From Burkholderiaceae bacterium (GTDB taxonomy: Bacteria > Pseudomonadota > Gammaproteobacteria > Burkholderiales > Burkholderiaceae_E): a DNA stretch of 53,495 bases. The first letter of the stretch is position 1; every line of letters starts with the position of its first letter. Below the pieces are notes generated by a model. That model made no database searches. It was not told where the DNA came from and saw only the letters and a program-made list of their open reading frames with translations. The DNA lies in contig JAHBZV010000017.1 in NCBI GenBank assembly GCA_019635275.1, forward strand, positions 1 through 53,495, in the 5' to 3' direction. Below are positions 11,209 through 51,475 of the stretch, piece after piece. Both the position numbers and the translations under genes were made by a program.

Positions 11209-11232
11209 GGGAGGCGCTTTTCAGCGCTTCCC
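11209..11232. terminator. Hairpin between convergent prsT and wbpP
   Basis: GGGAGGCGCT (11209-11218) and AGCGCTTCCC (11223-11232) form a 10-bp stem with one G-U pair on the plus-strand transcript and a 4-base TTTC loop. The right arm overlaps the last codons and stop of wbpP. The site is right for a bidirectional terminator, but there is no T-run on either side, so it may instead be an mRNA 3'-end stabiliser. Confidence 0.45.
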
Positions 11233-12306: not shown

Positions 12307-12323
12307 GAGGGTCGTCGGCCCGC

Positions 12324-13604: not shown

Positions 13605-13670
13605 GGTTTGATGCCGAATTCCGGGGTGTGGGAGACCCGCACTGTAGGGTCGCTCGACGCGGGGCACGAG

Positions 13671-19767: not shown

Positions 19768-20925
19768 ATGTACGAGTCGTTCTACGGACTGACCGCCAAG
19801 CCGTTCCAGCTCAGCCCCGACCCCGAGTTCTTCTTCGGCAGCCGCGGCCATCGCCGGGCGATGGCCTATCTCGAGTACGGCCTGCACCAGGCGGAGGGGT
19901 TCATCGTCGTGACCGGCGAGGTCGGCGCCGGCAAGACCACGCTCGTGCAGCAGCTGCTGCGCCGGCTGCCGGTGAACAACGTGGTGCCGGTGCAGGTCGT
20001 GACGACGCAACTCGAAGCCGAAGACCTGGTTCGCATCGTCGCCAGTTCGTTCGGGCTGCCCGCCGACGCACAAGACAAGTCGACACTGCTGATCCGCCTG
20101 GAGCAGTACCTGCGCCAGCTGCACGCCGAGGGCAAGCGCGCGCTGCTGATCGTCGACGAGGCGCAGAACCTCGGAGCGCGCGCGATCGAAGAGCTGCGCA
20201 TGCTGTCGAACTTCCAGGTCGGCACCAAGGCGATCCTGCAGAGCTTCCTGCTGGGCCAGCCCGAGCTGCGCGACCTGATGCAGCGCCCCGAGATGCGCCA
20301 GCTCAAGCAGCGCATCATCGCGGCCTACCACCTCGGCCCGCTCGATCGCGCCGAGACGCAGCAGTACATCGAGCACCGCCTCGCGCACGTCGGCTGGAAG
20401 AACGACCCGGCGTTCGACACGGCCGCGTTCGACCGCATCTTCGCCGTCACGCACGGCATTCCGCGGCGAATCAACTCGCTGGCCGACCGGCTGCTGCTCA
20501 GCGGCTTCCTCGCCGAGCGCCACCAGCTGGGCGAGCAGGACGTGGCCGAAGTCGCCGACGAACTGCGGCTCGAGCTGGGCCCGCGCCGAGGGTTCCTGCG
20601 CGACACTGCGGCGGCGCCCGCCGAGAGCGAGCGCGCATCCGCCGAAGCGCTCGAGGACTTCGGCGACGAGCTCGACGCGGTCTCCACTTCGGCCGACCTG
20701 AATGGATCGCGCGGCGGCGACGACCGGATCGCGCTACCGGGCAAGGGCGTGAACGGCAGCGGGCGCCGGTCCGAGGCGTCGACGGGCCGCATGGCCGACC
20801 TCGAGCACCGCGTGGAGATGCTCGAGTCGGCCACCGGCATGATCTTCGGCGCGCTGAAGAAGGTGCTTCGGCTGCTGCGCGGTCGCGCCTCGGGCGCCGA
20901 AGCGACGGAGCGCGACTCGCCGTGA
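19768..20925 (+). CDS. XrtA-associated AAA ATPase (ExeA-like)
   Basis: A 385-residue ATPase starting with the family signature MYESFYGLTAKPFQL and FFGSRGHRRA. Walker A is TGEVGAGKTTL (about 49-59) and Walker B ALLIVDEAQNL (about 128-138); an arginine-rich lid follows with GIPRRINSLADRLLL. The last 110 residues are acidic and Ser/Ala-rich and end in a probable coiled coil (LEHRVEMLESATG). ExeA-like ATPases help assemble envelope machines; in XrtA loci this one is a constant partner of the barrel and deacetylase genes. The next gene starts at a GTGA overlap. Confidence 0.9.
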   Translation: MYESFYGLTAKPFQLSPDPEFFFGSRGHRRAMAYLEYGLHQAEGFIVVTGEVGAGKTTLVQQLLRRLPVNNVVPVQVVTTQLEAEDLVRIVASSFGLPADAQDKSTLLIRLEQYLRQLHAEGKRALLIVDEAQNLGARAIEELRMLSNFQVGTKAILQSFLLGQPELRDLMQRPEMRQLKQRIIAAYHLGPLDRAETQQYIEHRLAHVGWKNDPAFDTAAFDRIFAVTHGIPRRINSLADRLLLSGFLAERHQLGEQDVAEVADELRLELGPRRGFLRDTAAAPAESERASAEALEDFGDELDAVSTSADLNGSRGGDDRIALPGKGVNGSGRRSEASTGRMADLEHRVEMLESATGMIFGALKKVLRLLRGRASGAEATERDSP

Positions 20926-21770
20926 GCGCCGGGCAGCCCGTGAACGCGATGTCGATCGACGTCGAGGACTACTTCCAGGTCGCAGCGTTCGCCCCGTACA
21001 TCGAGCGCCATCGCTGGGACGGCATGGAGTGCCGCGTCGAGCGCAATGTCGCACTCATCCTCGACCTGCTCGACCGGCACGCGACGAAGGCCACATTCTT
21101 CACGCTCGGCTGGATCGCCGAACGCTATCCTGCCCTCGTGAAAGAGATCGTCGCCCGCGGACACGAGCTCGCCAGCCACGGCTACGGCCACCTGCGTGCG
21201 AGCGACCAGACACCCGATTCGTTCCGGGAAGACCTGGCCGTCGCCAAGGCGCTCCTCGAGGACATCGGCGGGGTCGCGGTCACCGGCTACCGGGCACCGA
21301 GCTTCTCGATCGGCGAAGGCAACCTCTGGGCGCACGACGTGATCGCCGAGACGGGGCACCGCTACAGCTCCAGCGTCTACCCGATCGCACACGACCACTA
21401 CGGCATGCCGGCGGCACCTCGGTTCGCCTGGCGCACCGACTCGGGCGTGGTCGAGATTCCGCCCAGTTCGCTCAGGGTCCTGGGCCGCAACCTGCCGGCT
21501 TCGGGCGGCGGCTACTTCCGGCTACTGCCGTATCCCGTCTCGCGCTGGAGCATCCAGCGCATCAACCGGCAGGACGGCCAGTCTTGCATCTTCTACTTCC
21601 ACCCGTGGGAAGTCGATCCCCATCAGCCGCGCATCGCGCAAGCCGGCGCGAAGTCGAAATTCCGCCACTACCTGAACCTCGACCGGATGGCCTCCCGACT
21701 CGACCGGCTGCTGGCCGACTTCCGCTGGGACCGGGTCGATCGCGTCTTCGCCGAACACCTCGCCCACTGA
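20922..21770 (+). CDS. XrtA-system polysaccharide deacetylase (DUF3473 type)
   Basis: A 282-residue NodB-fold carbohydrate deacetylase. The metal-binding aspartates are in MSIDVEDYFQV, the second motif is ELASHGYGHL, and GYRAPSFSIGEGN is the next conserved motif. The C-terminal part with GGGYFRLLPYP and FYFHPWEVDPHQPR is the DUF3473 extension of PEP-CTERM deacetylases. It probably removes N-acetyl groups from the exopolysaccharide. GTG 20922 overlaps the ATPase stop by 4 bp (GTGA), implying coupled translation; an internal ATG at 20949 (MSIDVEDYF) is less likely to be the start. No signal peptide is visible. Confidence 0.9.
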   Translation: MSAGQPVNAMSIDVEDYFQVAAFAPYIERHRWDGMECRVERNVALILDLLDRHATKATFFTLGWIAERYPALVKEIVARGHELASHGYGHLRASDQTPDSFREDLAVAKALLEDIGGVAVTGYRAPSFSIGEGNLWAHDVIAETGHRYSSSVYPIAHDHYGMPAAPRFAWRTDSGVVEIPPSSLRVLGRNLPASGGGYFRLLPYPVSRWSIQRINRQDGQSCIFYFHPWEVDPHQPRIAQAGAKSKFRHYLNLDRMASRLDRLLADFRWDRVDRVFAEHLAH

Positions 21771-21783
21771 ACCGCAGCACCCG

Positions 21784-22881
21784 GTGGCTTCCGACATGAA
21801 CGCAGTGACCGAAGCGTGGCCCGTCGAATCCGCACCCCGCGCGGCCGACGCTGAACCCGTCCGGGTCGCCGTCGCCGGCGACGCCGACGCGCGCGACTGG
21901 CAGGCCTGGATCGAGCGCCACCCGCAGGCGACGATCTACCACGACTGGGCTTGGCGCGGCATCCTCGCGAAGGCGTTCGGCCATCGCCCGCACTTCCTGG
22001 TCGCACGGCGCGGCGGTCGCATGGTCGGCGTGCTGCCGCTCGCGCAGGTGAAGACACTGCTGTTCGGCCACTCGCTGGTGAGCCTCCCCTTCTGCCCGTA
22101 CGCGGGCCCGCTGGGCGAAGACCGCGAAACACTCGACGCGCTCGACCGGCACGCCGAGGCGCTGGGCCGCGAACTCGGCGTCGATCACCTCGAGTACCGC
22201 AGCCTGGGCGAGTCGCATCGCGGCTGGCCGTCGCAGGACCTCTACGTGGTGTTCCGCAAGCCGATGAGCGCGGACCATGAAGCGAACATGAACGCGATCC
22301 CGCGCAAGCAGCGCGCGATGGTGCGCAAAGGCATCAAGGCGGGCCTCGCGAGCGAGGTCGGCGACCTCGACACGTTCTTCCGGCTGTTCTCGGACAACGT
22401 GCACCGGCACGGCACGCCGGCGCACAGCCGCCGCTTCTTCGCGCTGATGCTCGAGGCCTTCGGCGAGCGCGCCGACATCCTCATCGTGCGCGACGCGCAG
22501 GGCGTGCCGGTGAGCGGTGTCCTCAGCCTGTATTTCCGCGACGAGGCGCTGCCGATGCACGCGGGCGACGACGTGCGCGCGCGCGAGCTGGCCGCCAACG
22601 ACTTCAAGTACTGGGAGCTGATGCGCCGCTCGGTCGACCGCGGCTACCGGGTGTTCAACTACGGACGCAGCAAGCGCGGCACCGGCCCGTTCGACTTCAA
22701 GAAGAACTGGGGCTTCGAGCCCACGCCGCTCACCTACGAATACCGGCTGTTCAGGCGCGACGCGATTCCGCAGAACAATCCGCTGAACCCGAAGTACCGG
22801 CTGATGATCGAGACCTGGCGCAGGTTGCCGCGCTGGCTGGTCAACGCGATCGGCCCGTACCTGGTACGCGGGCTCGGTTGA
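21784..22881 (+). CDS. FemAB-family XrtA/PEP-CTERM-associated protein
   Basis: A 365-residue protein of the FemAB/GNAT-like superfamily in the PEP-CTERM subgroup. It shows WIERHPQATIYHDWAWRGI near the N-terminus, the paired acyltransferase folds, and a C-terminal segment with YRVFNYGRSKRGTGPFDFK. FemAB proteins add amino acids to peptidoglycan precursors from aminoacyl-tRNA; for this subgroup the acceptor is unknown and may be a sugar of the exopolysaccharide. The start may be GTG 21784 or ATG 21796; neither has a clear ribosome binding site. It lies 13 bp after the deacetylase and directly before xrtA. Confidence 0.88.
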   Translation: MASDMNAVTEAWPVESAPRAADAEPVRVAVAGDADARDWQAWIERHPQATIYHDWAWRGILAKAFGHRPHFLVARRGGRMVGVLPLAQVKTLLFGHSLVSLPFCPYAGPLGEDRETLDALDRHAEALGRELGVDHLEYRSLGESHRGWPSQDLYVVFRKPMSADHEANMNAIPRKQRAMVRKGIKAGLASEVGDLDTFFRLFSDNVHRHGTPAHSRRFFALMLEAFGERADILIVRDAQGVPVSGVLSLYFRDEALPMHAGDDVRARELAANDFKYWELMRRSVDRGYRVFNYGRSKRGTGPFDFKKNWGFEPTPLTYEYRLFRRDAIPQNNPLNPKYRLMIETWRRLPRWLVNAIGPYLVRGLG

Positions 22882-22892
22882 GGGGCGCCGCT

Positions 22893-24527
22893 GTGGCGAG
22901 CCGGTTGCCGCACGACGCGCCCGACGCGGTCTCCGGCCCGATGGCGCAGGCGACGCCGTCGCGGCGCTGGGTGCCGGTGTTCGCCGCATTCGTCTTCGCG
23001 TGCCTGCTGTCGATCGCGGCGTTTCCCGACGCCTGGCTCTCGATGGCCTACGTCTGGTGGACGTCGGACACCTTCGCGCACGGCTTCATCGCGCTGCCCT
23101 GCGCCGCCTGGATGATCTGGCGCCGGCGCGACGACTGGGCGCAGGTCGAGCAGCGCGCGTGGTGGCCGGGGCTGGCGGCAGTGCTCGGCTGCGGCGCGCT
23201 GTGGCTGGCCGGCCGCCTGGGCGGGGTCGCGTCGATCGAGGAACTCGCGGCGGTCGCCGCCATCCCGGCGACGCTGCTGCTGCTGGCCGGCCCGTCGATC
23301 GTCCGCGCGCTGGCCTTCCCGCTCGCGTTCCTGTTCTTCGCAGTGCCGATCGGCGAGTTCCTCACGCCGATCATGATGGACTACACCGCCGACGCCACGG
23401 TGATGGCGCTGCGCTGGTCGGGCGTGCCGGTCTATCGCGAAGGGTTGCACTTCATGGTGCCCACCGGGCGCTGGTCGGTGGTCGAAGCCTGCAGCGGATT
23501 GCGCTACCTGATCGCGTCGCTGGCGCTGGGCGTGCTCTACGCGTACCTGCAGTTCCGCACGCTGCGCTACCGGCTGATGTTCATCGCCATGGCGGTCGCC
23601 GTGCCGATCGTCGCGAACTGGATCCGCGCTTACATGATCGTGATGCTCGGCCACCTGTCGGGCATGCGTATCGCCACCGGCGTCGATCACCTCGTCTACG
23701 GGTGGGTCTTCTTCGGGATCGTGATGGCGGCGATGTTCTGGTTCGGGTCACGCTGGCGCGAGCCGGCGACGGCCGAACCGGCCCCCCCGGCCGAGCCTTC
23801 CGGGGGCGGCACGGGCGCGCCCGGAGTCGCGCCAGCCAGTCTGCCCACCCAGGGTGGGGCGGCCCCGCGCCGTCCGGTCGTCATCGCTGCGCTCGTCGCG
23901 GCGGCCGCCGTGCTGGCCTGGCGCCCCGTCGCCGGTGCGATGCTGGCGGCGACCCACCCGATCCAGGTCGGCCCCGCCCTGCGCGCGGCGCTCGCCGCCT
24001 TCCCCGAGGCGCCCGCCCTGCCCTTCGAGCCCGCCTATTTCGACGCGCGCGAAGCAGTGAGGCTGTCGCGCAGCGTCGACGGGCAACCGGTCGACGTGCA
24101 CGCGTTCTACTACGCGCGCCAGCACGAATCGCAGGAGATGATCCACGCGCGCAACACGCTGGTGAAGCTCGACGACCCCCGGTGGTCGATCCGCTCGAGC
24201 GGCAGCGAGTCGACACCGTTCGGCCAGGCCGCCTCCTATCGTCTTGTCAGCCCTGGTGGCGCGATGCTCCTCGTCTGGCACTGGTATGCGGTGGACGGCT
24301 GGCAGTCGCCAAGCGCCTATCGCGCGAAGGCCGCCACCGCGTGGTCGCTCGCCACAGGCCACGGCGACCATTCGGTGGCGGTGACGCTGGCCACGCCGAT
24401 CGGCGACGAAGGCGGCGCTGCCGCGCTGCAGTCCGCGCGCTCGCGCCTCGCGAAGGCCGCCACGGCGCTCGCTCCGGCGGTCGACGCCGCCTCCCGTGGG
24501 CGCACCGCGACAGCGGGCGCGCAATGA
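22893..24527 (+). CDS. xrtA: Exosortase A (XrtA) fused to an EpsI domain
   Basis: A 544-residue inner-membrane cysteine transpeptidase-like enzyme that recognises and cleaves PEP-CTERM sorting signals. The N-terminal half has about eight transmembrane helices; the catalytic triad is Cys200 (VVEACSGLRY), Arg245 (ANWIRAYMIV) and His266 (GVDHLVYGW), all intact. After a Pro/Gly-rich linker (about 285-320) and another membrane helix comes a soluble EpsI-type domain (about 360-520). GTG 22893 is chosen because GAGGGG lies 7 bp before it; a TTG at 22878 overlapping the femAB stop is the alternative. The next glycosyltransferase gene begins just downstream. Confidence 0.94.
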   Translation: MASRLPHDAPDAVSGPMAQATPSRRWVPVFAAFVFACLLSIAAFPDAWLSMAYVWWTSDTFAHGFIALPCAAWMIWRRRDDWAQVEQRAWWPGLAAVLGCGALWLAGRLGGVASIEELAAVAAIPATLLLLAGPSIVRALAFPLAFLFFAVPIGEFLTPIMMDYTADATVMALRWSGVPVYREGLHFMVPTGRWSVVEACSGLRYLIASLALGVLYAYLQFRTLRYRLMFIAMAVAVPIVANWIRAYMIVMLGHLSGMRIATGVDHLVYGWVFFGIVMAAMFWFGSRWREPATAEPAPPAEPSGGGTGAPGVAPASLPTQGGAAPRRPVVIAALVAAAAVLAWRPVAGAMLAATHPIQVGPALRAALAAFPEAPALPFEPAYFDAREAVRLSRSVDGQPVDVHAFYYARQHESQEMIHARNTLVKLDDPRWSIRSSGSESTPFGQAASYRLVSPGGAMLLVWHWYAVDGWQSPSAYRAKAATAWSLATGHGDHSVAVTLATPIGDEGGAAALQSARSRLAKAATALAPAVDAASRGRTATAGAQ

Positions 24528-25802: not shown

Positions 25803-27749
25803 ATGTGCGGCATCACCGGCATCTTCGATTCGCGCGCGCCGCGCAGCCCCGACGAGGCGCTGCTGCGCCGGATGAACGACATCCAGTTCCACCGCGGCCC
25901 CGACGAGGGCTCGGTGCACGTCGAGCCGCACGTCGGCTTCGGGCACCGGCGCCTGTCGATCATCGACGTCGCCACCGGGCAGCAGCCGCTCTTCAACGAG
26001 GACCACAGCGTCGTCGTCGTCTTCAACGGCGAGATCTACAACTTCCAGGCTCTCGCCGCCGAGCTCGAGGCGGCCGGCCACGTGTTCCGCACGCGAAGCG
26101 ACACCGAGGTGATCGTCCACGGCTGGGAGCAGTGGGGCGAGGCCTGCGTCGAGCGTTTCCGCGGCATGTTCGCGTTCGCGCTGTGGGACCGCAACCGGCA
26201 GACGCTGTTCATGGCGCGCGACCGGCTCGGCGTGAAGCCGCTGCACTATGCGGTGCTGTCGGACGGCCAGCTGCTGTTCGGTTCGGAGCTGAAGACGATC
26301 GTCGCGCACCCGGCCTTCGGACGCGAGCTCGACGACCGGGCGATCGAAGACTACTTTGCGTTCGGCTACATCCCCGATCCGCGGACGATCTACCGCGGCG
26401 CGGCCAAGCTCTCGCCGGCGCACACGCTCACTTGGCGCGTCGGCGAACGGGCGCCGCGCGTGCGCCGCTACTGGGACGTGAACTTCGAACCCGACGCAGG
26501 CATCACGCTGGACGACGCCTGCGCACAGCTGCGCGAGAAGCTCACCGAATCCGTGAAGCTGCGGATGATCTCGGAAGTGCCGCTCGGCGCGTTCCTGTCC
26601 GGCGGCGTCGATTCGAGCGCGGTGGTGGCGGCGATGGCAGGCCTGTCCGACTCTCCAGTCAAGACCTGCTCGATCGGCTTCGACGTCGCCTCGTTCAACG
26701 AGTCCGAGTTCGCGCAGCGGGTCGCCGAGCGTTACCACACCGACCACTATACCGAGACGGTGCGCAGCGACGATTTCGGCCTGATCGACCGGCTCGCGAG
26801 CCTCTACGACGAGCCGTACGCCGACAGCTCGGCCATTCCCACCTACCGCGTCTGCGAGCTCGCGCGCAAGCGCGTCACCGTCGCGCTGTCGGGCGACGGC
26901 GGCGACGAGACCTTCGGCGGCTACCGGCGCTACAAGTTCCACGTGCGCGAGCAGGCGCTGCGCGACCGGCTGCCCGCCGGACTGCGCCAGATGCTGTTCG
27001 GCACCCTGGGCCGGGTATACCCGAAGTTCGACTCGATGCCGCGGATGTTCCGCGCCCGCGCGACCTTCCAGGCGCTGGCCCGCGACGCCGTCGAGGCCTA
27101 TTGCCATTCGGTGTCGATCGTCCGAGACGACGACCGGGCGACGCTGTTCTCCCCCGAATTCCGGCGCCGGCTCGGCGGCTACCGCGCGCGCGACGTCTTC
27201 GCTGCGCACGCGCTGCGCGCACCCGCCGACGACCCGCTATCGCTGATCCAGTACCTGGACTACCAGACGTATCTTCCGGGCGACATCAACACCAAGGTCG
27301 ACCGGGCCAGCATGGCACACTCGCTCGAGGTGCGCGAGCCGCTGATGGACCACGAGCTGGTCGAGTGGGCCGCTCGCCTGCCGTCGTCGCTGAAGCTCTC
27401 GGGCGGCGAAGGCAAGCTGGTGCTGAAGAAGGCGATGGAGCCGCTCTTGCCGCACGACGTGCTGTACCGGCCCAAGATGGGGTTCGCGGTGCCGCTCGTC
27501 GACTGGTTCCGCGGGCCGCTGCGCGGCGAGGTGCAGCGGGTGCTGAAGGGCGAGGCACTGGCCGCCACGGGGATCTTCGATCCGCGGGCGCTCTCGCGCA
27601 TCGCCGACGAGCACCTGTCGGGACAGCGCGACCGCAGCGCGATGATCTGGAGCCTGCTGATGTTCGAACGGTTCACGACCGGCATGGGCGGCGTCGACGG
27701 CCGATACGCCGCGCGCTCCGCCGGCGTCGAGGAATCCGTCGATGCGTGA
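25803..27749 (+). CDS. XrtA-associated class II amidotransferase (asparagine-synthase family)
   Basis: A 648-residue AsnB-like enzyme. The start MCGITGIFD exposes Cys2, the glutaminase nucleophile, after Met removal; the glutaminase domain continues with RGPDEGSVHV and VVFNGEIYNF. The synthetase domain has the ATP pyrophosphatase loop SGGVDSS (about 266-272) and LSGDGGDETFGGYRRY. In XrtA loci this family is called amidotransferase 1; it probably amidates a uronic-acid carboxyl or a similar group of the polysaccharide, which would fit the tviB product. Only 7 bp separate it from the glycosyltransferase, and it overlaps the O-ligase gene by 8 bp. Confidence 0.93.
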   Translation: MCGITGIFDSRAPRSPDEALLRRMNDIQFHRGPDEGSVHVEPHVGFGHRRLSIIDVATGQQPLFNEDHSVVVVFNGEIYNFQALAAELEAAGHVFRTRSDTEVIVHGWEQWGEACVERFRGMFAFALWDRNRQTLFMARDRLGVKPLHYAVLSDGQLLFGSELKTIVAHPAFGRELDDRAIEDYFAFGYIPDPRTIYRGAAKLSPAHTLTWRVGERAPRVRRYWDVNFEPDAGITLDDACAQLREKLTESVKLRMISEVPLGAFLSGGVDSSAVVAAMAGLSDSPVKTCSIGFDVASFNESEFAQRVAERYHTDHYTETVRSDDFGLIDRLASLYDEPYADSSAIPTYRVCELARKRVTVALSGDGGDETFGGYRRYKFHVREQALRDRLPAGLRQMLFGTLGRVYPKFDSMPRMFRARATFQALARDAVEAYCHSVSIVRDDDRATLFSPEFRRRLGGYRARDVFAAHALRAPADDPLSLIQYLDYQTYLPGDINTKVDRASMAHSLEVREPLMDHELVEWAARLPSSLKLSGGEGKLVLKKAMEPLLPHDVLYRPKMGFAVPLVDWFRGPLRGEVQRVLKGEALAATGIFDPRALSRIADEHLSGQRDRSAMIWSLLMFERFTTGMGGVDGRYAARSAGVEESVDA

Positions 27750-42067: not shown

Positions 42068-43281
42068 GCCCGCTCCCTGCGCCCGACCAGGCTCGAATAG
42101 ATTGCCTCGTAGCGATCGACGCTGCGCGCCCAGGTGCGCTCGCTCTCGACGAACCGGCGTCCGGCGGTGGCCATGCGATCGCGCAGCGCCGCGTCGCCCA
42201 GCAATCGCAGCGCGGCCCTGGCGAGCGCCGACACGTCGCCCGCCTCGAACAGCAGACCGGTGCGGCCGTTCTCGATCAGCTCTCGATGGCCGCCGACGTC
42301 GGACGCGATCAGCACCCTGCCCTGCGCCATCGCCTCGAGCGGCTTCAACGGGGTGACCAGCTCGGTGAGGCGCATCGAGCGACGGGGAAAGGCGAGCATC
42401 GACGCAAGGCTGTAGTAGCGGTCGATCTCGTCGTTGGGCACGCGCCCGGTGAACACCACGCGATCGGCCACGCCGCGGGCGCGCGCCTGTTCGCGCAGCG
42501 CAGCGTCCTGCGGACCGCCTCCGACCAGCAGGAGCTTCACCCGGGGACGCGACGCGACGATCTGCGGCAGCGCGTCGATCAGAAGATCCAGCCCTTCGTA
42601 CGCATAGAACGAACCGCAAAAGCCGATGACTTCCCATCCGTCGAGCCCGAGCGAGCGCGCGAGCCCGGCGTCGGCGCCGTCGAGCACCCTGAACTTCTCG
42701 ATGTCGACCGCGTTCGGAATCACCGTCACCTTGTCGGCGCCGATGCCTCGCCGCAGGATGTCGCGGCGCATCCCGTCGCAGATCGTCGTGATCGCGTCGA
42801 CCCGGCGCAGCGCGTGCGTCTCGAGCGCGCGCGACGCGCGGTAGCGCAAGCTGTGCTCGGTGGTCGTGCCGTGGTCGACCGCAGCGTCCTCCCACAGCGC
42901 ACGCACCTCGTAGACGACCGGCAGGCCGAGCGCACGGCCGACGCGGATCGCCGGCAGCACGTCGAGCACGGGCGAGTGCGCGTGCAACACGTCGGGCTCG
43001 ACCTCTCGCGCGAACCCGAGCAGGCGCGCCTCCGTGGCCCGCATCTCGTCGAACGGCCACAACGCCGGCACCTTGGCGAGCCAGCCGGGCCTGTAGGGGG
43101 TGCGCACGAACTCGAAGCCTTCGGCGGTCTCGCGCTCGACGTCTCCGGCGTTCTGCTTCGGGCTGGTCAGCTGGAACGTCTGCCAGCCGTGGCGCCGCTG
43201 TTCGCGAAGGATGGAGAGCGTACGAAAGGCATAACCGCTGTGCAGCGGCGCCGAGTGGTCCAGGATGTGCAGGATGCGCAT
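42064..43281 (-). CDS. GT4 glycosyltransferase, exosortase A-associated (stp3/Daro_2409 type)
   Basis: A 405-residue GT-B enzyme. It begins MRILHILDHSAPLHSGYAF, as in the exosortase A-associated Daro_2409 group. It shows EVRALWEDAAVDHGT and the C-terminal donor motifs GFCGSFYAYEGLDLLI and PLKPLEAMAQGRVLIASDVGG. It should add a sugar to the lipid-linked repeat. The start is firm: ATG shares its A with the TGA of the preceding gene (TGATG). It is one of five coupled genes, so its product is needed together with the ligase, decarboxylase and asparagine-synthase-like enzyme. Confidence 0.9.
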   Translation of the reverse strand: MRILHILDHSAPLHSGYAFRTLSILREQRRHGWQTFQLTSPKQNAGDVERETAEGFEFVRTPYRPGWLAKVPALWPFDEMRATEARLLGFAREVEPDVLHAHSPVLDVLPAIRVGRALGLPVVYEVRALWEDAAVDHGTTTEHSLRYRASRALETHALRRVDAITTICDGMRRDILRRGIGADKVTVIPNAVDIEKFRVLDGADAGLARSLGLDGWEVIGFCGSFYAYEGLDLLIDALPQIVASRPRVKLLLVGGGPQDAALREQARARGVADRVVFTGRVPNDEIDRYYSLASMLAFPRRSMRLTELVTPLKPLEAMAQGRVLIASDVGGHRELIENGRTGLLFEAGDVSALARAALRLLGDAALRDRMATAGRRFVESERTWARSVDRYEAIYSSLVGRRERA

Positions 43282-45119
43282 CAGCGGCTCTCCAGCCTCG
43301 CGTCGGCCAGCGGCGAACCGCGCAGCCACAGTTCGAAGATCATCAGCACCCAGACCATGGTGCCGAAGTAGCCGGCATGCCCCGAGGCCAGCTGCGCCAG
43401 CAACTGTTTCAGGAATCCCTCGCGGATCACGCCTCGCGCCGCCAGCGAGCGCAGCGCGTCGTCGGCCATCGCGCGCAGCCTGTCGTGCGTGAGCAGCCAG
43501 TCGCCGAACGGCATGCCGAAACCGTGCTTCTGCTTGGCGATGATCTCGTCGGGCAGGAAGCCACGCAACGATTCCTTGAAGAAGTAACGCAGCTTGCGCC
43601 CCTTGAGCTTCTCGTCGGGGCGCAGCTTCAGCGAATGCTCGACCAGGGCGTGCGCAATCATCGGGAACGCCACCTGCACGCCTGCCGCATGGCACATGCG
43701 CGTGACCTTCGGCAGGTCGCTGTCGGCCAGCGTGAACTTGAAGTCCCAGGCAAGCAGCCGGTTGATCTGCGACATCGCCTGGCCGGCCGCACCGCTGCGC
43801 AGCCGCGCGCGCGTCCACACCTCGCGCTCGAGTGCCAGCGGCTGGCCCAGCGAGACGCGCGCGAGGACCGCGTCGGTGAAGACCTCTTGCGCACCGAGCC
43901 GATTGAGCAGGTTGTAGCGGCTCTGCAAGCGGTCGGGGAGCGGCTCGCGCGCCTGCTCGATGTAACTGCGCCCCTTCGCAAGCAGGCGCGCGTCGACGCC
44001 CGCGAGCGGCCCGAACAGAAGCGGCTCGAGCACGCCGTTGCGCAGCCACCGCGGCACGCGCTCGTACATCGCGAAGGTAGCCTGCTTGGCGTAGCGTTCG
44101 TTGCCGCCGTACAGTTCGTCGCCGCCGTCGCCACCCAGCATCCGCACGACACCGGCCTCCCGGGCGATCCGGGCGCAGAAATAGGTGGGCACCGCCGACG
44201 AGTTGCCGAACGGCTGCTCGTACTGGGTCGCCACGGCCTGCACGCCGGCGAGCACGTCGTCGGGCGTCAGGAAGTACTCGGTGTGCTCGGTGCCGAAGTG
44301 CTTCGCCGCCAGCCGCGAATACATCGTCTCGTCGTAGCCGCCGACGTCGAAGCCGATCGAGAAGGTGCGCGCCGGCGCGTCGTACTGGCGCGTGACCAGC
44401 CCGGCGATGGTCGAGCTGTCGGTGCCCCCCGAGAGAAAGCAGCCGACCTGGTCACGCGACAGTCCGGCGGTGCACTCGGCGACGCCCTCGCGCAGCGCGC
44501 CGAGGAACGCCTCGCGCTCGACGGCGAAATCGAACGGCTGGCCTTCGTCGAACACCGGCGTCCAGTAGCGAACCACGTCCGCGCGGCCGTCGGCGATGCG
44601 CAGCGCCTCGCCGAGGTCGAGGCGGCGCACGCCGTCGAAGATGCTCAGCGGCGCCGGCACCATGTGGAAGTAGGCATAGGCAAGCGCCGCCTGCCAGTCG
44701 AGCGCCGCCGACAGGCCCGCCAGCGAGGCGGCCTGCGCGGGCCGCGCCGAGAACGCGAGCGCGCCGCCGTGACGCGCCCAGAAGAGCGGATAGGTGGAGA
44801 AGCGGTCGACCGCGACCAGCCCGCGGCGGCGCTCGTCGTCCCACAGGGCGACCAAAAATTCGCCGGCGAGCTCGTCGAGCACCGAATCGCCGTGCGCGAG
44901 CCAGCGATCGAGCAGCGAGGCCGCCGCATCGGCGGGAACTTGCCCCGGCGCTTCGTCGATGAAGCGAAGCCGACCGAAGACGAGCGCCGATGCGCCGCCG
45001 TGCCGGGCCCGCTGCAACCCGGGCACGTCCGCGTCGGGCCACAGCGGCGCCGACGGCGACCCGTCCTGGTTCAGCGCGACGCGCCCGTGAAACGGAATCG
45101 GCAACAGCGAACGCGTCAA
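43281..45119 (-). CDS. Asparagine-synthase-like enzyme lacking the glutaminase cysteine
   Basis: A 612-residue member of the AsnB family. The synthetase half is intact: the pyrophosphatase loop CFLSGGTDSSTIAG (about 225-238), FSIGFDVGGYDETMYS and LGGDGGDELYGGNERY, and GKRKLRYFF-like KLKGRKLRYFFKESLRG near the C-terminus. The N-terminal half keeps the glutaminase-like fold but starts MTRSLLPIPFHGRV, so it has no Cys at position 2 and no MCG anywhere upstream in frame. Without it glutamine cannot be used in the usual way; the enzyme may use ammonia, another amine, or form an intramolecular amide as beta-lactam synthetase does. The start TTG 45119 overlaps the decarboxylase stop (TTGA). Contrast with the intact paralogue at 25803-27749. 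Confidence 0.85.
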   Translation of the reverse strand: MTRSLLPIPFHGRVALNQDGSPSAPLWPDADVPGLQRARHGGASALVFGRLRFIDEAPGQVPADAAASLLDRWLAHGDSVLDELAGEFLVALWDDERRRGLVAVDRFSTYPLFWARHGGALAFSARPAQAASLAGLSAALDWQAALAYAYFHMVPAPLSIFDGVRRLDLGEALRIADGRADVVRYWTPVFDEGQPFDFAVEREAFLGALREGVAECTAGLSRDQVGCFLSGGTDSSTIAGLVTRQYDAPARTFSIGFDVGGYDETMYSRLAAKHFGTEHTEYFLTPDDVLAGVQAVATQYEQPFGNSSAVPTYFCARIAREAGVVRMLGGDGGDELYGGNERYAKQATFAMYERVPRWLRNGVLEPLLFGPLAGVDARLLAKGRSYIEQAREPLPDRLQSRYNLLNRLGAQEVFTDAVLARVSLGQPLALEREVWTRARLRSGAAGQAMSQINRLLAWDFKFTLADSDLPKVTRMCHAAGVQVAFPMIAHALVEHSLKLRPDEKLKGRKLRYFFKESLRGFLPDEIIAKQKHGFGMPFGDWLLTHDRLRAMADDALRSLAARGVIREGFLKQLLAQLASGHAGYFGTMVWVLMIFELWLRGSPLADARLESR

Positions 45120-46366
45120 ACCAGAACCTCCGCCGGAGCGGGGTGGCTCAGGAACGCCGTCGGACTGGCGGTCAGCCCATAGGCGCCCGACTGGAACACG
45201 GCGACCAGGTCGCCGGGCTCCGCGTGCGCAAGCGGCATCCGTTCGGCCAGCACGTCGAGCGGCGTGCACAACGGACCCACCACGGTCTGCACCTCGTCGG
45301 CAGGCGCGTCGATCCGGTTGGCCACCGCCACCGGGTAGTTCTTGCGCAGCACCTGCCCGAAGTTGCCCGAGGCGGCCAGGTGGTGGTGCAGACCTCCATC
45401 GGTGACGAGGAACACCTGCCCGCACGATTCCTTCCGGTCGAGCACGCGGCACACGTACAGACCCGCATGCGCAACGAGATAGCGGCCGAGCTCGATCACC
45501 AGCGGCGCGCCGAGGTCGGCGCCGGCGCGTTCGGACAGACGATGCAGGTTCTCGGCAATCGGCGAGAGATCCAGTTCCGCCTCGCCGGGGAAGTAGGGCA
45601 CGCCCAGCCCTCCCCCCAGGTTGAGCCAGTCGACGGGGCCTCCCCATTGGCGCAACAGCGAAAGCCCCAACTCGTAGGTCTTGCGCTGCGCATCGACGAT
45701 CGCGTCGGCACGCAGGTTCTGCGAGCCCCCGAAAATGTGCAGGCCGCTCAGGTGAACGCCACTCTCGCGCACCCGATCGAGCACCTCGGGCACCCGCGCC
45801 TCGTCGATGCCGAACGGCTTGGGGCCGCCCCCCATCTTCATGCCGGACGACTTCAGCTCGAACGCCGGGTTGACGCGCACGGCCACGCGCGGCAACACGC
45901 CGAGCGCCGCGCCCGCCTGGACCGCCTGCTCCAGTTGCAGCGCCGATTCCACCGTGACGGTGATTCCGGCCGCCACCGCCCTGCGGATCTCGGCCGCCGA
46001 CTTGCCCGGCCCGGCGAAGCTCACCCGCTCCGGTGCAACCCCGGCATCGAGCGCCACCGCCATCTCCTGCGCCGACGCCACGTCCAGGCCGTCGGTCAGG
46101 CCCGCGAGGTGCTGGACCACGGCCGGCATCGGATTGGCCTTGATCGCGTAATGCAGGTGCATCGCCCGCGGCAGCGCGGCGCGAAGCGACGCCACGCGCG
46201 CGCCGATCGCCTGGCGGTCATAGACATAGAACGGCGTGCGACCGACCCGCTCGGCGAGCCGGCTCACCGGGATGCCGCCGGGCGCGATCTCGCCGCCGAC
46301 GACCGCGAAGAACGCGTTCGGCGCATGCTGGGCAAAGCGGATCTCCGCCGTCTTGCGTGCGCTCAT
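45116..46366 (-). CDS. PLP-dependent decarboxylase, exosortase A-associated (fold III, BtrK-like)
   Basis: A 416-residue fold-type III enzyme related to diaminopimelate and ornithine decarboxylases. The PLP lysine is Lys76 in HYAIKANPMP, the phosphate-binding glycines are in WLNLGGGLGVPY, and the cysteine donated across the dimer is Cys367 in GPLCTPLD. This is the decarboxylase family linked to exosortase A systems; the closest characterised functional relative I know is BtrK, which decarboxylates glutamate bound to an acyl carrier protein. An ACP gene lies 1.7 kb away. The ATG overlaps the ligase stop (ATGA). The substrate amino acid cannot be read from sequence. Confidence 0.9.
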   Translation of the reverse strand: MSARKTAEIRFAQHAPNAFFAVVGGEIAPGGIPVSRLAERVGRTPFYVYDRQAIGARVASLRAALPRAMHLHYAIKANPMPAVVQHLAGLTDGLDVASAQEMAVALDAGVAPERVSFAGPGKSAAEIRRAVAAGITVTVESALQLEQAVQAGAALGVLPRVAVRVNPAFELKSSGMKMGGGPKPFGIDEARVPEVLDRVRESGVHLSGLHIFGGSQNLRADAIVDAQRKTYELGLSLLRQWGGPVDWLNLGGGLGVPYFPGEAELDLSPIAENLHRLSERAGADLGAPLVIELGRYLVAHAGLYVCRVLDRKESCGQVFLVTDGGLHHHLAASGNFGQVLRKNYPVAVANRIDAPADEVQTVVGPLCTPLDVLAERMPLAHAEPGDLVAVFQSGAYGLTASPTAFLSHPAPAEVLV

Positions 46367-47949
46367 TGCGCCCCCGAAAACAGCCCGGCTCGCTCGCCGG
46401 CCAGCGTCTTGCGATCGATCTTGCCGTTGGCGTTGCGCGGCAGCGCGCCCGCAAGCCAATCGACGTGCTGCGGCAGCATGAATGCGGGCAGCTGCGCCTT
46501 GCAGGCGTCGAGCAAGGCCTTCGTGTCGGCCGCTCGGCCCTCGGCCGGCTGCGCGACCAGCACGATCGCCTGTCCGAGCGCGGGGTGCTCGACGCCGAAC
46601 GCGGCCACCTCGGCCACCAGCCCCGAGCGGTAGATCACCTCCTCGATCTCGGTCGGGCTTACCCGATACCCCGACGTCTTGATCATCTCGTCGCGGCGGC
46701 TCACGAAGTAGAGGAACCCCTCCTCGTCGCGCTTGACGGTATCGCCCGACCACACGGCCAGTTCGGTCAGCACCAGCTCCTTCGGCTGCCCCGGCAGCGG
46801 CTTGAAGCGCTCGGCGGTTTTCTCTGGGTCGTTCCAGTAGCCCATCGAGACCAGCGCCCCGCGATGCACCAGCTCGCCGGGCTCGCCCGGTGCACACTCG
46901 CTGCCGTCCTCGCGCACGACGAGGATCTCGGCATTCGGAATCGCCTTGCCCATCGACGTCGGCCGGCGATCGACCTCTTCGGGCGGCAGGTAGGTGGAGC
47001 GAAAGGCCTCCGTGAGCCCGTACATCAGGTACGGCCTGGCGCGCGGCACGCGCCGGCGCAGCTCGGCCAGGGTGGCCGTGGGCATCGCGCCGCCCGAATT
47101 GGTGAAGTAGCGCAGGTGCTCGCCGATCGACGCGGGCCAATCGAGCGCCGCCAGCTGGATCCACAGCGGCGGAACGGCCGCCAGACCGGTGATGCGCTCG
47201 CGCACGAGCGCGCGAATCACATCCTGCGGCAGCAGGTAGTTGTGCAGCACCGCCGTCGCCCCGACCAGGAACGCGGTGGTGAGCTGCGACAGGCCATAGT
47301 CGAACGACAGCGGCAGCACCGCGAGGATGCGGTCGTCCGGGGTGTTCTCGAGGTAGGTCGAGACGCTGCGCGCGCCCTCGACGATGTTGCGATGCGACAA
47401 CACCACGCCCTTCGGCTTGCCGGTGCTGCCGGAGGTGTACAGGATGCCCGCCATGTCGACGTCGATCACCCGGTGGGGGCGCGCCGAACGGTCGGCCGCG
47501 GCCATCAGCGCCTCCCAGCCGAGCACCTGGGTGGCACCGGTCGGCGCACCGGCCGTCTCGCCACCGCCCACGACGACGATGTGACGCAGGTCGGGGCACT
47601 GCGCGAGCAGCGGGGCGAAGCCGGCCACGCGCGGTGCGTTGGTGACCAGCACCTCGACGTTGCAGTCGCGCGCGATGTACGCTGCCTGCTCGGGCTTGAG
47701 CAGCGGATTGATCGGCACGAACACGCAGCCGGCGCGAGCCGTGCCGAAGATCGCGACGACCGTCTCGATGCGCTTCTCGATCCAGATGCCGACCCGGGCC
47801 GCGCGCGGCAGGCGTAGCGCCGCCAGGGCGGCGGCGAAGGTCTCGATGGCGGCGGCGAGTTGATCGTAGGTCTCGGCCTGATCCTGCAAACGCAGCGCAA
47901 CGCCGGCCGGACGTTGGCGCGCCGAATGTATGATTAAATCAGCGAGCAC
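46363..47949 (-). CDS. AMP-forming acyl-CoA/ACP ligase, exosortase A-associated
   Basis: A 528-residue ANL-family adenylating enzyme. The ATP-binding P-loop is YTSGSTGKPKG (171-181), YGLTEAF is the A5-type motif, KTSGYRVSP the A8 hinge, and NANGKIDRKTL near the end carries the catalytic lysine. It activates a carboxylic acid as an adenylate and passes it to a thiol, probably the phosphopantetheine of the ACP encoded divergently 134 bp away. The start is GTG 47949 with GAGGGG 5 bp upstream. It is the first gene of the long minus-strand operon ending at 38687. Confidence 0.9.
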   Translation of the reverse strand: MLADLIIHSARQRPAGVALRLQDQAETYDQLAAAIETFAAALAALRLPRAARVGIWIEKRIETVVAIFGTARAGCVFVPINPLLKPEQAAYIARDCNVEVLVTNAPRVAGFAPLLAQCPDLRHIVVVGGGETAGAPTGATQVLGWEALMAAADRSARPHRVIDVDMAGILYTSGSTGKPKGVVLSHRNIVEGARSVSTYLENTPDDRILAVLPLSFDYGLSQLTTAFLVGATAVLHNYLLPQDVIRALVRERITGLAAVPPLWIQLAALDWPASIGEHLRYFTNSGGAMPTATLAELRRRVPRARPYLMYGLTEAFRSTYLPPEEVDRRPTSMGKAIPNAEILVVREDGSECAPGEPGELVHRGALVSMGYWNDPEKTAERFKPLPGQPKELVLTELAVWSGDTVKRDEEGFLYFVSRRDEMIKTSGYRVSPTEIEEVIYRSGLVAEVAAFGVEHPALGQAIVLVAQPAEGRAADTKALLDACKAQLPAFMLPQHVDWLAGALPRNANGKIDRKTLAGERAGLFSGAQ

Positions 47950-48047
47950 ACGGACCCCTCGAGGAACCTCCTGATGACCGACGAGGATACCGTGAACGAG
48001 ACGCCTGGAACGTTAGTTTTCGCACCATCCGACGAGGGGACGACCGC

Positions 48048-48053
48048 TAGAAT
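48048..48053 (+). promoter_or_regulatory. Candidate -10 element before the ACP gene
   Basis: TAGAAT is a 5/6 match to TATAAT, 30 bp before the ACP ATG in the 134-bp divergent gap. It is embedded in GCTAGAATC, a string that occurs again at 51459-51467 in front of another gene start. No convincing -35 is present at 16-18 bp. A TGGAACG (about 48006-48012) resembles a sigma-54 -24 element, but the GC of a -12 element is misplaced. Confidence 0.35.
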
Positions 48054-48083
48054 CGAGCGGCATTCAAACGGCGACTTGACGCA

Positions 48084-48335
48084 ATGAACCACGCAGATGC
48101 CCTGAGGAAAATCCTCTCGTCACAACTCGGAAGCGCCTATCCGCCAACGTACTTCAGGGACGAGACTGAATTGCTCGGCCACGTGCCTGAACTCGACTCG
48201 ATGGCGGTGGTCGGCGTCTTGACTGCCATCGAGGACGAAATGGGCATCATCATCGGCGACGACGAGATCAGCGCGGATGCCTTCGCGACCTTTGGCAGCC
48301 TGCTGGAGTTCGTCCAGGCGAAAGTGCCAGGCTAG
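48084..48335 (+). CDS. Acyl carrier protein
   Basis: An 83-residue acidic four-helix carrier protein. The phosphopantetheine site is Ser39 in PELDSMAVVGVLTAIE, with the conserved D-S pair, and the C-terminal half has ISADAFATFGSLLEFVQ as expected of helix IV. It is distinct from the fatty-acid AcpP in sequence and by its position next to an AMP ligase, a decarboxylase and a GNAT transferase; it probably carries an amino-acid-derived acyl group. It is divergent from the ligase and is followed by the TPR protein after 9 bp. Confidence 0.9.
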   Translation: MNHADALRKILSSQLGSAYPPTYFRDETELLGHVPELDSMAVVGVLTAIEDEMGIIIGDDEISADAFATFGSLLEFVQAKVPG

Positions 48336-48344
48336 AGCTGTACC

Positions 48345-49007
48345 ATGCGAACGCGTCTTTCGCGCTGGTCGCCCCTCATCGCAGCTGGCCTTGTGTATGC
48401 ATCGGCCAGTTCTCTAGCAGCGGCGCAAACGATCGTACCCGACAGCGCCGGCGGCCTCGGACTCTGCGGACCGCTGGAGAACAGCTTTGGCCCGTTCGAC
48501 TATCGGACGGCGACCAAAGAGCAGAAGTCGATCGTTGAACGCTACCACTTCACGCCTGCCGTCGAGACACTGCGCTCAGGATCCACCGGATCGATCGGCT
48601 CGGACCTCGACTACACGTTGCGCGCGTTTCCCAACCACCTCAGGGCGCTGTCCGCCCTCAGCCGGTACTCGCAACGCGTGGGCCAGACCCGGATTGCGGG
48701 CGCCCATTACCCGGTCGAGTGCTACTTCGACCGTGCAATCCGCTTCACGCCGGATGACCCGCAGGTTCGGGTCCTCTACGGCTTCTACCTGATGAAGCAG
48801 AAACGCGTGAAGGAGGCCCGGACGCAGTTGAGCGCGGCCGAGGGTGCGGGTCACGACGACCCTCAGGTCGCCTACAACCTCGGCCTCGCATATCTCGAAC
48901 TCGGCGACTACGACCGGTCCGTGATCTTTGCGAAGAAGGCCTACGCCGGCGGAATTTCGTTTCCAGGCCTGCGCAACAGGCTGACCGCCGCCGGCAAGTG
49001 GAAGTGA
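48345..49007 (+). CDS. Secreted TPR-repeat protein of unknown function
   Basis: A 220-residue exported protein. The signal peptide (about 1-28, ending ASSLAAAQ) is followed by a distinctive segment with GLGLCGPLENSFGPFDYR (about 37-54), and the C-terminal half has two to three TPR-like helical pairs (AIRFTPDDPQVRVLYGFYL, AYNLGLAYLELGDYDRSV). Two cysteines (Cys in LCGP and in VECYFD) could form a disulfide in the periplasm. Its gene lies 9 bp after the ACP gene and 31 bp before a GNAT gene, so it is probably co-transcribed with them. I do not know a function for it. Confidence 0.8.
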   Translation: MRTRLSRWSPLIAAGLVYASASSLAAAQTIVPDSAGGLGLCGPLENSFGPFDYRTATKEQKSIVERYHFTPAVETLRSGSTGSIGSDLDYTLRAFPNHLRALSALSRYSQRVGQTRIAGAHYPVECYFDRAIRFTPDDPQVRVLYGFYLMKQKRVKEARTQLSAAEGAGHDDPQVAYNLGLAYLELGDYDRSVIFAKKAYAGGISFPGLRNRLTAAGKWK

Positions 49008-49038
49008 GCCGGCGACACACCGGGCCCTCTCGCTGATC

Positions 49039-49719
49039 ATGCCGCAGTTCGTCGGCGATTTGCGCCGGATGGGGTTCGTCAACTGGTTCGCCTATGCAGC
49101 GGACCGGGCGCTGGAGAAGGCCTCCGGCGGGTGGATCAGAGCCAGGGCGCTTTGGTTCTATGCGCAGCCTGTCGACCTCATCCCGCAGACAACGACGCGG
49201 CCGGGCGACCGCATCAGCACGACGGTGGTTTCGCGCGCGGAGTTGCCGGAAGGCGCATTCGGCCGTCCGCACGGCGCCTTCGCCAAGCGCTTCGATCAGG
49301 GATCGATCTGCATTGCAGCGCGCAGAGACTCGGAACTGATCGGATTCATGTGGCTTCAATTCGACGAACTGCGCGAACAACTCTTCCGCTGCGACTTCAT
49401 CCCCTGCCCACACGGCCGCGCGGCATGGGATTTCGACCTGTACGTCGCGCCGGAGCTTCGATTGAGCAAAGCCTTCGCTCGCCTTTGGAGCCATGCACGA
49501 AGCTACTTGTGCGAGCGAGGCATCGAGACGACCATCAGCTGGATCGCGTTCGACAACGACGCCTCCCAGCGGGCCCATCGCCGAATGGGCGCCAAACGAG
49601 TGGGATGGGCGATCGTATTGACGGCCGGATCAGCGCGGGTCGTGCTGTCCACTGCACGACCGTACCTCAGCGCCGGACTGAAGGATTCGAGAACGCGGCT
49701 GTTCGTCGATTCGTCCTGA
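49039..49719 (+). CDS. GNAT-family N-acyltransferase
   Basis: A 226-residue cytosolic protein with a GNAT-like core: a strand-turn SELIGFMWLQFDELRE, the region DFDLYVAPELRLSKAFARLW where acyl-CoA or acyl-ACP would bind, and the terminal ISWIAFDNDASQRAHRRMGAKRVGW, which is the typical Asn/Arg-rich end of the fold. Acceptor and donor are unknown. Its place directly after the ACP gene makes transfer of the ACP-bound acyl group to an amino sugar an attractive hypothesis. The N-terminal 60 residues are basic and not part of the core. It converges on the lipoprotein gene with 32 bp between. Confidence 0.75.
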   Translation: MPQFVGDLRRMGFVNWFAYAADRALEKASGGWIRARALWFYAQPVDLIPQTTTRPGDRISTTVVSRAELPEGAFGRPHGAFAKRFDQGSICIAARRDSELIGFMWLQFDELREQLFRCDFIPCPHGRAAWDFDLYVAPELRLSKAFARLWSHARSYLCERGIETTISWIAFDNDASQRAHRRMGAKRVGWAIVLTAGSARVVLSTARPYLSAGLKDSRTRLFVDSS

Positions 49720-51146: not shown

Positions 51147-51475
51147 GAGGCACCTGCTTTGCGAAGATGGCGACGTACCCGGGACGGGGATGCTCGCGAA
51201 TCGAGGCACGGACCCCGCCCGGAGGGCATTGGAGCGCGGAAAAAGTCACAGTCGCAGGCTGATTCAGCCACGCGGCGTCGCCGGCGCGACGAATGGTACG
51301 CTCGACTACCGCGACTCCCATGACTTCCCGATCGCTCCTCGCGTGAGCCCGGCCGCAATGCTACCGGGTTGCGGGGCGGATGATTGCACCGCAGCCTCGG
51401 GAATCCCCTTGGATATTCTGACGATCTTGTCAAGCCATTCTGGCCGAGGGCCCGGACGCTAGAATCCGACCCATC
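51147..51475. other. 329-bp divergent intergenic region
   Basis: No gene is seen between the propeller lipoprotein and the next glycosyltransferase. It contains a 6-bp stem (51276-51291), TAGAAT (51460-51465) inside GCTAGAATC just 10 bp before the glycosyltransferase GTG, and a GG-N10-GC arrangement ending in TTGCA (51374-51388) that could be a weak sigma-54 site. None is certain. Confidence 0.4.

Follow-up and report, generated by a model that had tools for sequence, protein, structure and literature searches.

In butirosin biosynthesis, the ligase BtrJ belongs to the ATP-grasp class and the amino-acyl product goes to an aminoglycoside. For the VinN/VinL/VinO system of vicenistatin, sections of two papers (PMC11253843, PMC11284099) describe a decarboxylase that acts on an amino acid bound to an acyl carrier protein (ACP), giving a beta-aminoacyl-ACP; the section of PMC11284099 places VinO after the loading. 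VinN residues Asp230, Ser299 and Arg331 have been proposed as binders of the alpha-amino and alpha-carboxyl groups (part of PMC7756342; part of PMC11253843 likewise deals with Asp230). The same part of PMC7756342 reports that these residues are conserved in the BolO/BolC/BolN system of Burkholderia gladioli and that deletion of bolN abolishes the product. Here we describe a ligase, a decarboxylase and an ACP encoded together in a stretch of 53,495 nucleotides (the window) from a Burkholderiaceae bacterium (assembly GCA_019635275.1, contig JAHBZV010000017.1), which also carries an exosortase A (XrtA) locus. The ligase-decarboxylase-ACP triad is the core of the system and forms one unit, probably a three-protein factory of beta-aminoacyl thioesters attached to the polysaccharide/exosortase A locus. 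It was compared with other loci, genomes and contigs, labelled with L-, G- and C-numbers, respectively.

Ligase, decarboxylase and ACP

The ligase gene (46363..47949, minus strand) starts with GTG and encodes a VinN-type adenylating enzyme of 528 amino acids. It overlaps, in the sequence ATGA, the gene for a BtrK-like pyridoxal-phosphate (PLP) decarboxylase of 416 amino acids with a CTPLD motif (45116..46366, minus strand). The ACP gene (48084..48335, plus strand) is divergent, its start lying 134 bp from that of the ligase, and encodes 83 amino acids with the phosphopantetheine site PELDSMAV. Ligase and ACP are also divergent in 24 of the 27 survey loci and 39 of the 45 loci from named genomes that have both in the stretch.

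The ligase belongs to TIGR03098 (807.2 bits against a curated cut-off of 592.35) and to the PF00501 AMP-binding class. VinN is its best single-domain solved relative over the whole length (182 bits), and also tops the PDB search with the pocket region (45 bits, against 31 for the next). In the alignment, Asp217, Ser285 and Arg317 of the ligase correspond to Asp230, Ser299 and Arg331 of VinN. Among 29 ligases (the window and 28 others in alignment A1, the L046 ligase being left out as sited elsewhere in G102), Asp and Arg are found in 29/29, and the remaining position holds Ser in 22 and Thr in 7. Since the VinN residues are kept, the expected substrate of the ligase is an aspartate-like amino acid, activated at its side-chain carboxyl; an amino acid as substrate had been proposed in the original prediction, which was made from the window alone, and these putative amino-acid-binding residues point the same way. 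Second ligase-like matches were seen in L088 (near 703) and L089 (near 6911).

The decarboxylase scores 575 bits with TIGR03099, whose curated cut-off is 478.45. Among 50 matched solved sequences its nearest is BtrK, the L-glutamyl-[BtrI ACP] decarboxylase (269 bits, 40% identity over 378 columns), and the best diaminopimelate decarboxylase comes next with 154 bits. The motif CTxxD, as in BtrK, is present in 40/40 sequences, namely 30 family members, window included, and 10 relatives below the cut-off. The LysA encoded separately in the same genome and the structure 2p3e have CESGD or CETGD at this site; the Glu of CExxD binds the distal amine. Being nearer to BtrK than to diaminopimelate decarboxylase, and with this Glu replaced, the enzyme appears to be of the BtrK/VinO type. 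A rough tree sets all CTxxD sequences apart from LysA and 2p3e; among them BtrK has a poorly supported place, paired with L076 at a support of only 0.16. A second decarboxylase-like match in L112, near 5800, may be LysA. The ten loci with a decarboxylase below the cut-off (L067-L076) stand outside the residue counts of 29 or 30 over-cut-off ligases and decarboxylases, and inside the 119-locus comparison, the 40-sequence motif set and the pool searched for asparagine-synthase-like proteins and hydrolases.

The ACP matches PF00550 with 17.6 bits, below the gathering score of 20.8, and no NCBIfam model was above its cut-off in the NCBIfam scan. Its Asp38-Ser39 pair is invariant in 29 aligned family rows, window included, as befits a carrier site and an ACP family. 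The nearest solved relative is 2lki (58 bits, then 19), labelled 'putative uncharacterized protein'.

Distribution of the triad, exosortase A and hydrolases

A survey of 398 genomes from the phylum found TIGR03099 above its cut-off in 30. The ACPs adjoining the decarboxylase in 28 loci and in the window were used to build an ACP model; with it the family reaches at least 89 bits in 30 genomes and at most 37.4 bits in the other 368. The decarboxylase and ACP sets are identical. TIGR03098 is above its cut-off in 29 of these 30 genomes and in no other of the 398; in the thirtieth, G126, the ligase scores 549 against a cut-off of 592, 44 bits short. The ACP lies within the 20-kb stretch at 28 of the 29 other TIGR03099 loci of the survey, a count which, with the identical genome sets, places the gene association beyond chance. 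As an independent check, a whole-genome ACP search was positive in 17/17 genomes (G318 and 16 reached via named loci; E at most 2.5e-26). ACPs were found in 15/15 of those without one in the fetched stretch (G318 and 14 named, mostly Nitrosomonas and relatives), four of these 15 coming from named stretches shorter than 20.4 kb; the remaining two, L099 and L160, already had an ACP in the stretch. The original prediction had grouped the ligase, the ACP and the BtrK-like decarboxylase, and both the grouping and the likeness to BtrK hold.

XrtA is above its cut-off in 35 of the 398 genomes, 27 of which have the triad and 8 do not. In the three other triad genomes (G107, G396 and G155), XrtA does not reach its cut-off, and neither FemAB nor hydrolase 1 was found. 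FemAB (TIGR03019) was found at E of at most 1e-20 in 35/35 XrtA genomes, 33 of them above its cut-off, and in 0/3 of the other triad genomes. Hydrolase 1 (TIGR03100) is present in 27/27 genomes with both triad and XrtA and in 0/11 others, among the 38 genomes with either; it is above the cut-off in 26 of the 27, with G126 at 166 against 168.45. Hydrolase 2 (TIGR03101) was found at E 1e-20 in 12 of the 38. Since the triad and XrtA sets overlap only partly, and hydrolase 1 occurs in exactly the overlap, the triad is a unit of its own that joins XrtA loci, with hydrolase 1 as the sign of the link.

The surroundings of the triad differ among the three genomes. In L043 (G107:C87:46001-66000) it lies among genes for GT4 and WsaF-like glycosyltransferases, an NDP-sugar 3-dehydrogenase-like protein, a DegT aminotransferase and a NeuD-like acetyltransferase; a bolagladin cluster was considered for this locus and rejected, its annotation being that of a glycan locus. 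The gene starts around the G396 triad, read by eye without a family search, resemble housekeeping genes. In L049 (G155:C2:329001-349000), the triad has beside it a TIGR03006 deacetylase and, scoring below cut-off, a TIGR03015-like ATPase; this is possibly an exosortase locus in decay.

The two hydrolases were described in the original prediction as not in the window, which is correct, but they are not missing: contig C107 of this assembly carries both, near 13312-14951 of L037 (contig C107:4001-24000). Hydrolase 1 passes its cut-off there and hydrolase 2 is below it (174.7 against 202.75). Read by eye, without a family scan, the surrounding frames look like glycosyltransferases, and an apparent further asparagine-synthase-like protein lies at 11456-13276 of L037. 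A second, weaker pair (hydrolase-1-like, 50 bits; hydrolase-2-like, 111 bits) is found at about 6108-8029 of L037, minus strand. In 55 aligned rows of hydrolase 1, the alpha/beta-hydrolase catalytic residues are a Cys nucleophile in 52, Asp in 49 and His in 49 (positions 114, 228 and 259, numbered from a putative start). The cysteine suggests that hydrolase 1 may be an acyltransferase and not a hydrolase. In hydrolase 2 the place of the nucleophile is taken by arginine in 40/41 rows.

Neighbouring genes and accessory enzymes

On the minus strand, ligase and decarboxylase are followed by genes for an asparagine-synthase-like protein (43281..45119, TTG start, TTGA overlap with the decarboxylase), a PEP-CTERM/XrtA glycosyltransferase (TIGR04063, 42064..43281, with an in-frame ATG at 43281 and a 1-base overlap with the asparagine-synthase-like gene) and a polysaccharide deacetylase (PF01522, 41108..42067, GTG at 42067, GTGA overlap with the glycosyltransferase), a candidate for exposing the acceptor amine. 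This chain is a five-gene unit. Its first three genes overlap by 4 bp at each junction, in line with the translational coupling given in the original prediction, whose coordinates for six genes and 134-bp divergence of the ACP also proved exact. On the plus strand the ACP is followed, after 9 bp, by a gene for a TPR-repeat protein (48345..49007) and, after a further 31 bp, by one for a GNAT-fold protein (49039..49719).

The placement of these genes in an exosortase A locus was likewise sound. XrtA (TIGR03109, with an EpsI domain) is encoded at 22878..24527, next to a TIGR03006 XrtA polysaccharide deacetylase (20922..21770), a TIGR03019 FemAB/VimA-related transferase (21784..22881) and a TIGR03108 glutamine amidotransferase (25803..27749), all on the plus strand and assigned by family match. 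The last has an intact MCG start and is a paralogue of the asparagine-synthase-like protein. TIGR03097 is also found in the window. A TviB-like UDP-N-acetylglucosamine (UDP-GlcNAc) dehydrogenase (485 bits) and a TviC-like epimerase (390 bits), both below cut-off, are encoded at 11221-13667, minus strand; with them, an amino-uronic acid of the N-acetylgalactosaminuronic acid (GalNAcA) type may be part of the polysaccharide. A protein of 485 amino acids (49752-51209, minus strand) has a lipoprotein-like start, as judged by eye, and gave no Pfam match; genes resembling it are near the same block in L083 and L084, the two closest relatives.

The asparagine-synthase-like protein matches Asn_synthase (PF00733) with 255 bits and has the PP-loop SGGTDSS, but not the N-terminal MCG cysteine. 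With 239.3 bits it falls well short of the TIGR03108 cut-off of 816.9, outside that family. Its own family occurs in the stretch at 3 of the 29 survey loci and 33 of the 80 named loci; alignment A5 holds the window and 25 of the 36 listed stretches. The N-terminal cysteine is absent from the proteins of the window, L083, L084 and L117, and a role as ammonia-using amidotransferase was set aside. In 14 of 38 rows, for example L150, L131 and L094, the putative N-terminus reads (M/L/V)xxxCGW, with the cysteine near position 5 and not 2, as if a short propeptide were cut or a glutaminase activity were decaying. The structure model (pLDDT 91.5) has the hydroxyamidotransferase TsnB9 as its best match (TM about 0.7); beta-lactam synthetase, carbapenam synthetase and AsnB score little lower, so amidation, condensation and cyclisation are not told apart. 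By analogy the protein may amidate or cyclise the acyl group, as the original prediction had it, in a family that is sporadic and a window protein without Cys2.

The GNAT protein matches Acetyltransf_1 (PF00583) with 29.5 bits. Besides the window, a GNAT gene was found within 1.8 kb of the ACP at 10 of 109 loci (2 of 29 survey and 8 of 80 named); alignment A4 contains the window and nine of these ten, L084 being left out as its match ran into the neighbour. A fold search returned generic GNATs only (best query TM about 0.5), from which no function follows. The GNAT and asparagine-synthase-like proteins are sporadic accessories. A relative of the overlapping deacetylase was found in the fetched stretch at 19 of 119 loci.

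A putative beta-aminoacyl pathway and its relation to known systems

A PLP-type decarboxylase needs a free alpha-amino and a free alpha-carboxyl group, and loading through the side chain leaves both free. In the proposed pathway, the ligase would adenylate the side-chain carboxyl, with Asp217 holding the alpha-amino and Ser285/Arg317 the alpha-carboxylate, as judged from the residues, and would load the amino acid on the phosphopantetheine that the dedicated ACP carries on its serine. The BtrK-like enzyme would then remove the free alpha-carboxyl on the ACP. The simplest predicted product is beta-alanyl-ACP, made from aspartate; a longer substrate would give a homologue, for example gamma-aminobutyryl-ACP (GABA-ACP). 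We consider this loading and decarboxylation on the ACP likely from the conserved residues. In a third step, a weaker inference from the operon partners with about even chances of being right, a transferase would pass the acyl group, with its terminal amine, to an amino sugar that a polysaccharide deacetylase has unmasked. The overlap with deacetylase and glycosyltransferase genes, together with the triad of G107 in a glycan locus, favours an amino sugar as the acceptor, and the overlapping genes make the transfer that the original prediction had suggested more likely. Hydrolase 1, perhaps together with its partner hydrolase 2, is the general candidate for this hand-off; the GNAT and the asparagine-synthase-like protein, which lacks the cysteine, would act as finishing enzymes in particular lineages. 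The scheme draws on the linkage of the genes, their joint occurrence and their conserved residues; the observation behind the original prediction is confirmed and its interpretation partly supported.

Several results weigh against this reading. All but one of the 30 ACP positives (G318) were part of the ACP model, and the 368 negatives are outside it; Fisher p-values for the set overlaps overstate the evidence, because the genomes are related. The ACP is in the stretch at only 45 of the 80 further loci from named genomes, many of these stretches being cut short. Among the 48 named loci whose stretch extends about 10 kb to either side, 32 have it and 16 do not; 10 of these 16 complete-flank genomes were searched whole, and L091, L115, L117, L118, L133 and L156 were left out. 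For the ligase, the two-domain LgrA outranks VinN (250 bits, as the sum of both domains, against 182), and the long-chain fatty acyl-CoA ligase subfamily model scores above that of amino-acid adenylation (313 and 267 bits, both below cut-off). Lys330 and Phe231 of VinN are replaced by Phe316 and Tyr218, so that the two pockets are not identical. Finally, only 3 of the 30 genomes with the triad have a GNAT of this family. This rules it out as the general transferase, whereas the original prediction had suggested that the GNAT could make the transfer in this gene set; hydrolase 1, with its cysteine nucleophile and its presence in exactly the 27 genomes with triad and XrtA, is the better general candidate.

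The triad may instead make a small secreted or lipid-linked amino-acyl metabolite, its position in a polysaccharide locus reflecting co-regulation only. The same architecture makes the starter units of vicenistatin and bolagladin, and G396 and G155 keep the triad without the exosortase partners, in G396 among apparent housekeeping genes. We regard this as unlikely, since the window genes overlap those for a glycosyltransferase and a deacetylase, XrtA accompanies the triad in 27 of 30 genomes, G107 has it among glycan genes and, the ligase aside, no polyketide synthase (PKS) or nonribosomal peptide synthetase (NRPS) model led among the window or L043 proteins scanned.

That the triad supplies the amine acceptor for the joining of PEP-CTERM proteins by exosortase A, in the manner of the seryl/glycyl linking sugar of type IX secretion, is distinctly unlikely. 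The frequent company of XrtA and the restriction of hydrolase 1 to genomes with both fit this proposal; the 8 XrtA genomes without the triad and the 3 triad genomes without XrtA above cut-off do not, and it is FemAB, not the triad, that is found in all 35 XrtA genomes. Just as doubtful is its extended form, in which beta-alanyl-ACP would pass via the Cys 'hydrolase' 1 to a deacetylated amino sugar serving as that acceptor; if true, such an amine handle would tie PEP-CTERM proteins to the exopolysaccharide of floc-forming bacteria.

Decarboxylation of a free amino acid, of the diaminopimelate or ornithine type, beside an unrelated acyl-CoA ligase is very improbable: lysA (TIGR01048) is the next best NCBIfam model of the decarboxylase (238 bits, below its 298 cut-off), but the BtrK-type CTxxD is universal in the set, the genome has its separate LysA-like protein and a dedicated ACP accompanies the enzyme in 30/30 genomes. 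Activation of a fatty or aryl acid, with the ACP carrying a lipid chain, has equally little to recommend it, since the fatty acyl-CoA subfamily score and the match of 4-chlorobenzoate and succinylbenzoate ligases to the pocket region (about 31 bits) are set against VinN as the best match there, the invariant Asp and Arg at its amino- and carboxyl-binding positions and the pairing with an amino-acid decarboxylase.

TIGR03098 and TIGR03099 (hypoth_equivalogs) and the hydrolases have only family names in databases, and no pathway for them was found in the open-access literature. Of the papers there that link exosortase with ligase, decarboxylase or ACP, none describes this module, judging from titles and the opening of abstracts, and no open-access paper was found under the TIGR names of these families. 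None of the words acyl carrier, decarboxylase, ligase, hydrolase, asparagine and amidotransferase occurs in Haft 2006 (PMC1569441). PMC8776678 mentions exosortase-module terms together, in passages that are unrelated, and the passages seen of PMC9850573, PMC2907700, PMC4784049, PMC11631085, PMC9012009, PMC3684757 and PMC7293339 have no bearing on the triad; titles on polysaccharides with beta-alanine gave nothing useful. New here, with none found in the open-access literature searched, are an ACP dedicated to the triad, the reasoning from residues of VinN and BtrK, the triad as a unit apart from XrtA, and a cysteine as the nucleophile of hydrolase 1. The loci found include some from Zoogloea, Thauera, Accumulibacter and Nitrosomonas, genera of importance for the treatment of wastewater. 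The dedicated ACP and the predicted beta-aminoacyl chemistry make the module a candidate for exopolysaccharide modification in these bacteria, where a short amine-bearing group perhaps decorates the polysaccharide slime that promotes the clumping of sludge bacteria. The triad also offers one route to testing what exosortase joins its proteins to.

NCBIfam names four exosortase A-associated families, namely the TIGR03098 ligase, the TIGR03099 decarboxylase and hydrolases 1 and 2 (TIGR03100, TIGR03101). A known pathway in a similar setting is that of the Wbp/Vim linking sugar (VimA, VimE, WbpS), in which, according to parts of Veith et al. 2020 (PMC7468200), a deacetylase, an aminoacyl transferase and an asparagine-synthase-like amidotransferase act on an amino-uronic sugar. 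The same paper showed that an amino-uronic sugar bearing a seryl or glycyl group is the linking sugar of type IX secretion, and speculated that something comparable is made by exosortase genomes that encode VimA-related proteins. The window has genes for putative counterparts, namely TIGR03006, TIGR03019, TIGR03108 and TviB/TviC-like enzymes. Unlike the triad, that pathway has no ligase-ACP-decarboxylase set: the words decarboxylase and acyl carrier do not occur in PMC7468200, and 'ligase' only in a reference title.

The butirosin analogy of the original prediction stands for the decarboxylase, since BtrK, which works with BtrI, shares CTxxD and is its nearest solved structure. It does not extend to the ligase, which is an AMP-binding enzyme and not an ATP-grasp ligase like BtrJ. 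A VinN-type ligase makes VinN/VinL/VinO or BolO/BolC/BolN the better template, and this template predicts side-chain-carboxyl activation and a beta-aminoacyl product. As in the window, the vicenistatin system and its relatives (for example FlvN, fluvirucin) have a stand-alone adenylating enzyme with Asp/Ser/Arg, a stand-alone ACP and a PLP decarboxylase, VinO being likened to ours by description and not by sequence. The window differs in its overlapping glycosyltransferase and deacetylase genes, in the Phe in place of Lys330 of VinN and in that no PKS was found among its scanned proteins. BolO/BolC/BolN similarly combine a VinN-like ligase, a free ACP and a BtrK-like decarboxylase, but feed an NRPS; their likeness to TIGR03098/TIGR03099 is again by description. 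Judged by its residues, the triad is a putative beta-aminoacyl-ACP starter module of a known kind, placed in a polysaccharide/exosortase setting.

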